A DNA stretch of 64,000 bases from Agelas oroides. Its lineage: Eukaryota; Porifera; Demospongiae; Agelasida; Agelasidae. Positions within the stretch are counted from its first letter, which is position 1; each line of letters begins with the position of its first letter. The stretch lies in contig OX422190.1 in assembly GCA_949130485.1 (NCBI GenBank), positions 2,088,781 through 2,152,780 on the forward strand, written 5' to 3'. The notes below the pieces were generated by a model. That model did no database searches. It was not told the origin of the DNA and was given only the letters and a program-made list of their open reading frames with translations. This document shows, piece by piece, positions 23,121 to 54,435 of the stretch. Position numbers and translations under genes: made by a program.

Positions 23121-23187
23121 ATGGAAGTATCGAGGTGGTTGGTGGCGAGTCTGTTCTGGATCTGCATCTGTGCTTTCTCAGCAGAGG
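23121..23187 (+). CDS. Gene 1 exon 1: signal peptide
   Basis: ATG at 23121 opens a 22-codon peptide: a basic start (MEVSRW), a hydrophobic core ([13 protein letters not shown]) and a small-residue cleavage region (SAE). It ends in phase 1 at a GT donor (GGGTAAAT) and joins the exon starting GQTIQDV at 25871. The choice of start is supported by gene 2, whose first exon at 55909 has the same length, phase and RWLV-LFWIC core. Intron 1 (23188-25870) is filled with inverted-repeat elements. No intermediate coding exon is apparent. Confidence 0.72.

Positions 23188-54435: not shown

Follow-up and report, generated by a model that had tools for sequence, protein, structure and literature searches.

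Sponge cell aggregation is among the oldest problems in cell recognition, and its receptor rests on cDNA from the 1990s. The Geodia aggregation receptor carries 14 SRCR domains, about six CCPs, a membrane helix, and a short cytoplasmic tail; its role is reportedly termed "putative" in the title of Blumbach 1998. We take CAA75175.1 to be its longest form.

A review describes the Geodia receptor as an SRCR/SCR membrane protein, for which galectin has been hypothesised as the link to the aggregation factor (PMC4557014), and two adjacent SRCR repeats of CAA75175.1 lie at residues 1042-1142 and 1153-1255 (PMC4491621). In SRCR8 of DMBT1, the ligand cations are held by D1019, D1020, D1058, D1059, N1081, and E1086, and altering D1019 or D1020 abolished binding (PMC7043408). 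The bacteria-binding motif of DMBT1, VEVLxxxxW, is carried by a 16-mer peptide (PMC3100851). CD163 clears haptoglobin-haemoglobin (PMC12273918).

Here, we analysed a gene of Agelas oroides (gene B) that occupies 23121..54435 of the plus strand of the window, i.e., the whole stretch of 64,000 nucleotides, C8:2088781-2152780, in an assembly of 259 Mb and 141 contigs. Its flanking paralogs are called A and C. SRCR pieces and CCPs were located with profiles built from a few domains of the window, and splice sites were then chosen around them. Between 25888 and 53193, the profiles detected nine CCPs, and SRCR pieces that combine to 14 domains, without exception on the plus strand. The model of gene B has 37 exons and 6,723 nt including the stop codon, and its 2,240 amino acids form, in this order, a signal peptide, 14 group A SRCRs, nine CCPs, one membrane helix, and an acidic tail (Table 1). 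The ATG is at 23121 and the TAG at 54433-54435; all 36 introns are GT-AG, every phase fits, and the sole stop is the final codon. Averaged over 19 residues, hydropathy exceeds 1.6 nowhere but in the signal peptide and in the helix (residues 2144-2178). This model recovers the start at 23121, the end at 54435, and the 37 exons proposed in an earlier sequence-only reading, and it bears out the consistent phases, signal peptide, helix, and acidic tail with stop described there; the coding length of 6,750 nt given in that reading is replaced by 6,723 nt.

Table 1. Exons of gene B, and exons of the downstream paralog C that lie in the window (window coordinates).
Feature	Position	Strand	Evidence
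B exon 1: start codon and signal peptide (23 protein letters)	23121..23187	+	hydropathy; first exons of A 73%, C 69% over 16 residues
B exon 2: SRCR1, single exon	25871..26215	+	profile, model, paralog placing
B exon 3: SRCR2 first part	26693..26855	+	profile, model, paralog placing
B exon 4: SRCR2 second part	27573..27724	+	profile, model, paralog placing
B exon 5: SRCR3 first part	28514..28687	+	profile, model, paralog placing
B exon 6: SRCR3 second part	28769..28981	+	profile, model, paralog placing
B exon 7: SRCR4 first part	31152..31308	+	profile, model, paralog placing
B exon 8: SRCR4 second part	32108..32298	+	profile, model, paralog placing
B exon 9: SRCR5 first part	32455..32615	+	profile, model, paralog placing
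B exon 10: SRCR5 second part	33705..33873	+	profile, model, paralog placing
B exon 11: SRCR6 first part	36165..36320	+	profile, model, paralog placing
B exon 12: SRCR6 second part	36694..36870	+	profile, model, paralog placing
B exon 13: SRCR7 first part	38638..38777	+	profile, model, paralog placing
B exon 14: SRCR7 second part	41723..41921	+	profile, model, paralog placing
B exon 15: SRCR8 first part	42404..42578	+	splice scores weak; matched in A
B exon 16: SRCR8 second part	43187..43335	+	profile, model, paralog placing
B exon 17: SRCR9 first part	43667..43797	+	profile, model, paralog placing
B exon 18: SRCR9 second part	44926..45121	+	profile, model, paralog placing
B exon 19: SRCR10, single exon, contains VEVLYNGTW	45403..45720	+	profile, model, paralog placing
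B exon 20: SRCR11, single exon	45867..46196	+	profile, model, paralog placing
B exon 21: SRCR12 first part	46404..46603	+	profile, model, paralog placing
B exon 22: SRCR12 second part	47713..47830	+	profile, model, paralog placing
B exon 23: SRCR13 first part	47976..48159	+	profile, model, paralog placing
B exon 24: SRCR13 second part	49620..49759	+	profile, model, paralog placing
B exon 25: SRCR14, single exon	50132..50461	+	profile, model, paralog placing
B exon 26: CCP1, longer type	50541..50738	+	model, CCP comparison, Pfam
B exon 27: CCP2, shorter type	51025..51207	+	model, CCP comparison, Pfam
B exon 28: CCP3, longer type	51312..51503	+	model, CCP comparison, Pfam
B exon 29: CCP4, shorter type	51576..51746	+	model, CCP comparison, Pfam
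B exon 30: CCP5, longer type	51857..52048	+	model, CCP comparison, Pfam
B exon 31: CCP6, shorter type	52107..52289	+	model, CCP comparison, Pfam
B exon 32: CCP7, shorter type	52422..52604	+	model, CCP comparison, Pfam
B exon 33: CCP8, longer type	52711..52902	+	model, CCP comparison, Pfam
B exon 34: CCP9, shorter type	53027..53215	+	model, CCP comparison, Pfam
B exon 35: membrane helix, hydropathy peak 3.0	53437..53542	+	A 75%, C 66%
B exon 36: cytoplasmic tail, basic then acidic	53692..53789	+	counterparts weakly placed: A 45%, C 37%
B exon 37: tail end, PLYxP and acidic run, stop codon	54335..54435	+	A and C both 59%
C exon 1, presumed signal peptide	55909..55975 (C8:2144689-2144755)	+	exon placing
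C exons 2-8	58416-58760, 59525-59687, 59997-60148, 60549-60719, 62081-62275, 62452-62605, 63972 onward	+	

Introns between domains of gene B are of phase 1, and the inner introns of the ten split SRCRs are of phase 0, 1, or 2; SRCRs 1, 10, 11, and 14 are each encoded by a single exon. Splice sites at exons 6, 15, 19, 20, 21, 26, 33, and 37 score poorly with simple matrices. A candidate mini-exon of 17 nt at 54121-54137 was dropped, since it would break the frame into exon 37. Neither AATAAA nor ATTAAA is present in 54436-56500, 3′ of the stop codon. Long low-complexity tandem repeats lie in introns at 27720-28510, 31320-31880, and 33036-33488; they are open in several frames and are non-coding in the model.

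The domain search agrees with the 14 SRCRs and nine CCPs counted by eye: over the whole protein, Pfam gives 14 SRCR stretches (1,314.8 bits) and eight Sushi stretches, and when the CCPs are scanned singly, nine out of nine pass the Sushi cut-off. Each of the 14 SRCRs has six cysteines and the length of about 100 residues that defines group A. CUB and zona pellucida domains are absent among the six Pfam families listed for the protein at E<=0.001. Against PDB, SRCR11 matches domains of DMBT1 with E down to 5.7e-35.

A scan of 202,780 bases, window included, revealed the two paralogs, which differ from B mainly in their numbers of stalk and head domains. Gene A (C8:2038798-2084252, minus strand) has 30 exons and encodes 1,798 amino acids with 14 SRCRs, two CCPs, a helix, and a tail; gene C (C8:2144689-2159653, plus strand) starts at 55909 of the window, runs past the window end at 64000 to C8:2159653, and has 17 exons encoding 928 amino acids with seven SRCRs, no CCP, a helix, and a tail. 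The signal peptide of C is presumed, because its first exon falls below the hydropathy cut-off of 1.6. A and B stand head to head, with 27.6 kb between their first exons. The short length of C has no assembly gap behind it, the sole run of N in the joined stretches being C8:2024281-2026780.

In tblastn at E<=0.1, phase not being required, A has matches to B exons 1-25, 35, and 37 and to CCP exons, and C has matches to exons 1-14, 35, and 37; exon 36 has none in either gene. Under chained exon placing, which required AG/GT ends, an uninterrupted frame, and the same phases as in B, every shared exon could be placed in both paralogs. A query of helix plus tail matches only A, B, and C at E<=0.001, the next match having E 0.07. 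In all three tails, a basic stretch follows the helix, and each tail also has acidic runs and a PLYxP motif; YRAV occurs in the tail of B only. According to blastn of A against B, 93% of the exon bases of B are covered versus 18% of its intron bases, the exceptions being introns 5, 18, and 24 (85-100%). The Pfam domains, together with exon conservation far above intron conservation, exclude chance, and the joining of the exons of gene B is shown by their conservation in the paralogs. This comparative evidence is the best support for gene B being one gene; as far as can be judged from sequence, it is a single, real, and complete gene.

Several other observations concern the neighbourhood and the rest of the assembly. 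Between the divergent genes, window positions 9479-10666 of the minus strand hold an open frame of 396 codons with a weak match to a tyrosine recombinase N-terminal SAM-like domain (E 1.6e-4, equal to the cut-off), perhaps from a mobile element. About 240 kb downstream, C8:2389157-2405951 contains a cluster of SRCR exons, with no CCP at the threshold used. Genome-wide, there are at least 183 SRCR matches (150 of 3,185 candidates scored) and at least 150 Sushi matches (150 of 1,010 scored). Other SRCR-CCP neighbourhoods are present: among four stretches of 10 kb covered, C17:6610528-6613650 and C17:6690192-6693090 have runs of eight and seven CCPs, respectively, preceding an SRCR, which is opposite to the order in B. 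Contig C141 is mitochondrial: its cox1 frames have internal TGA and read with code 4, an atp9-like frame is present, and 22 tRNA genes were found in the first 20,000 of its 22,436 bases, features that point to a demosponge. Its cox1 is probably split by an intron, as it forms two blocks with about 1.2 kb between them. A second cox1-like frame, at C107:16176-16808, has neither stops nor TGA codons and may belong to a bacterial symbiont present in the assembly.

The SRCR row is conserved domain by domain. Each of the 21 SRCRs in A and C has as its best match the SRCR of B with the same position number, and in a tree of the 35 SRCR domains, 13 out of 14 positions come out as separate, strongly supported clades, SRCR7 being the exception, as its long-branched C copy falls outside. 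Therefore, the row of 14 predates the split of A and B, and every SRCR position has a conserved character of its own. Doubling of a row of seven as the source of the 14 finds no trace among the best matches within B, none of which (0 out of 14) lies seven places away; SRCR2 and SRCR9 are mutual second-best matches (0.61). Between A and B, pairwise comparison of 1,424 SRCR codons, blind to single sites, gives Ka 0.088, Ks 0.33, and Ka/Ks 0.26; Ka/Ks is 0.40 for C and B (699 codons; 0.61 for SRCR7) and 0.37 for A and C (690 codons). Judged by these ratios, the SRCR row as a whole is under purifying selection. For the helix and tail, Ks between A and B is 1.50, near saturation. Ks between A and B is uneven along the row, from 0.11 (SRCR4) to 0.68 (SRCR14), with chi-square 35.7, 13 df, and p 0.00065 by a simplified count; one possible cause is gene conversion between A and B.

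The CCPs are of two types, longer and shorter. Gene A has one pair, and the stalk of B reads long-short, long-short, long-short, short, long-short. The segment 51016-51509 of B has a second copy, introns included, at 52413-52908 (92-93% identity), and Ks for eight CCP pairs compared within B is 0.10-0.62. The nine CCPs are therefore best explained by duplications of exon pairs within the gene, some of them recent. Such duplication would explain why the number of CCPs, confirmed as nine, differs from that in Geodia, a difference already pointed out in the sequence-only reading.

The likeness to the Geodia receptor, also proposed there, is supported by position as well as by the shared signal peptide, SRCR row, CCPs, helix, and tail. 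SRCR10 and SRCR11 of B span residues 1044-1145 and 1154-1254, so that the four ends are offset from those of the Geodia pair by 2, 3, 1, and -1 residues, and those of A by up to 4, in a comparison of two repeats by published coordinates. When the Geodia pair was slid along B as a control, both starts fell within three residues in 18 out of 900 shifts. The matching coordinates thus make gene B very likely a protein of the kind known as the putative Geodia aggregation receptor. These Geodia repeats are counted as the ninth and tenth, one below the count here (PMC4491621). At about 110 residues per repeat, nine would be expected before residue 1042, and we therefore suspect that one divergent Geodia repeat was left out of the published count.

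The ligand site was mapped through our own alignment, anchored on assumed positions of DMBT1 motifs and not on the PDB chain; in this mapping, all six residues of sites 2 and 3 (D or N at 1059) are present in nine out of 14 SRCRs of B (2, 4, 5, 7-11, and 14), the incomplete ones being 1, 3, 6, 12, and 13. They are complete in eight out of 14 SRCRs of A (4, 5, 7-11, and 14) and in one out of seven of C (SRCR4 only). The first acid of the buried site 1 (D or E at the equivalent of D1023) is found in only five out of 14 SRCRs of B.

Taking all this into account, we consider gene B to encode a Geodia-type receptor with type I membrane topology, for which calcium-dependent adhesion is the most likely function (probability roughly 0.6). 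Binding that depends on Ca fits this protein because nine of its SRCRs retain the cation residues. The SRCR row would project from the cell on the CCP stalk, and SRCRs 2, 4, 5, 7-11, and 14 would mainly bind anionic or glycan-bearing extracellular ligands via bound Ca2+ or Mg2+. Many weak contacts along the row could add up to firm attachment of cell to cell or cell to matrix, possibly through the sponge aggregation factor, and the tail, in which a conserved tyrosine lies beside acidic runs, would couple binding to signalling or uptake. Genes A and C would present a related head on stalks of two and zero CCPs. Several facts count against this explanation: five SRCRs of B do not have the full set of ligand-site residues, the site 1 acid is as rare as stated above, the RGD motif is absent, and YRAV is not shared by either paralog. 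The role of a cell-recognition or adhesion receptor, put forward in the sequence-only reading, is thus plausible, though reportedly only "putative" even in Geodia.

The main alternative, possible but less likely, is that the row captures bacterial surface polyanions, the protein being a scavenger receptor with which a filter-feeding animal clears or sorts bacteria, with adhesion secondary or absent; the two functions are compatible. SRCR10 of both A and B contains VEVLYNGTW, an exact fit to the DMBT1 motif, and the DMBT1 ligand site is retained in most SRCRs of B; moreover, one SRCR gene of another sponge rose with microbial molecules (PMC6208332). However, the motif lies near the consensus of the SRCR family, with an exact fit in one out of 14 SRCRs of B and none of the seven of C, and the order of the SRCRs is fixed, with the row under purifying selection as a whole by the pairwise ratios, which do not resolve single sites.

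Less probable still is that the membrane form is only one product, and that splicing or intron retention yields mainly secreted, agglutinating SRCR proteins like DMBT1, which would be compatible with either function. An alternative splice site is described near the tenth Geodia repeat (PMC4491621), and reading on from exon 20 (SRCR11) into intron 20 of B hits a stop within a few codons, the open frame ending at 46213; but such an early stop is the chance expectation in any intron, and the helix and the last tail exon are conserved in A, B, and C. Finally, that two or more genes, one of SRCRs and a separate one of CCPs and helix, have been joined in the reading is very improbable: SRCR and CCP domains are indeed abundant in the genome, but the phases fit throughout B, A repeats the succession SRCR14-CCP-CCP-helix-tail, C passes from SRCR7 directly to the helix, and no second hydrophobic stretch resembling a signal peptide passes the cut-off within B.

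Returning to the adhesion receptor, a speculative and on balance improbable extension is that the three genes form a recognition module, in which a conserved SRCR head is held at graded distances from the membrane (14 SRCRs and nine CCPs in B, 14 and two in A, seven and zero in C), with the stalk changing fast by duplication of CCP exon pairs and the head staying constant; gene conversion may maintain the similarity of some stretches between A and B. Such a module could sort contacts by distance, or C could act as a non-binding competitor, either of which would represent a new logic of cell recognition in sponges.

In the literature covered, where subscription papers are thinly represented, we did not find a three-gene locus of this kind described. 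The gene structure and the graded-stalk locus thus appear to be new, the Geodia type of receptor being already known. With a whole gene and its exon structure, two graded neighbours, and a list of the individual SRCRs that retain the binding site, the aggregation-receptor hypothesis becomes directly testable in a genome with long contigs.

Compared with known proteins, DMBT1 (SALSA, gp340) is like B in its large number of SRCRs and in the cation site residues that they hold, but it carries CUB and zona pellucida domains (PMC3100851) and is secreted into mucosal fluids (PMC5435793), whereas B has CCPs, a helix, and a tail. CD163 (M130), a macrophage receptor with an SRCR row, tops the PDB list for SRCR11 of B by a score summed over its nine domains; it has only nine SRCRs (PMC3100851) versus 14 in B. 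In sponges, Amphimedon queenslandica has tandem SRCR arrays with a varying number of SRCRs, as here, but with two to six SRCRs per gene and three exons per SRCR, as compared with seven or 14 SRCRs of one or two exons each; Sushi is outside its most frequent partner domains, whereas CCPs are present in two out of three genes here (PMC10855680). Similarly to our locus, the transcriptomes of Aplysina aerophoba and Dysidea avara contain SRCRs with Sushi repeats (PMC6208332). The receptor of Geodia cydonium (Pancer 1997; Blumbach 1998) is, like B, a membrane protein in which a series of SRCRs is combined with CCP/SCR repeats. It differs in having about six CCPs to the nine of B, and B also differs from it in being one of three paralogs that stand side by side.
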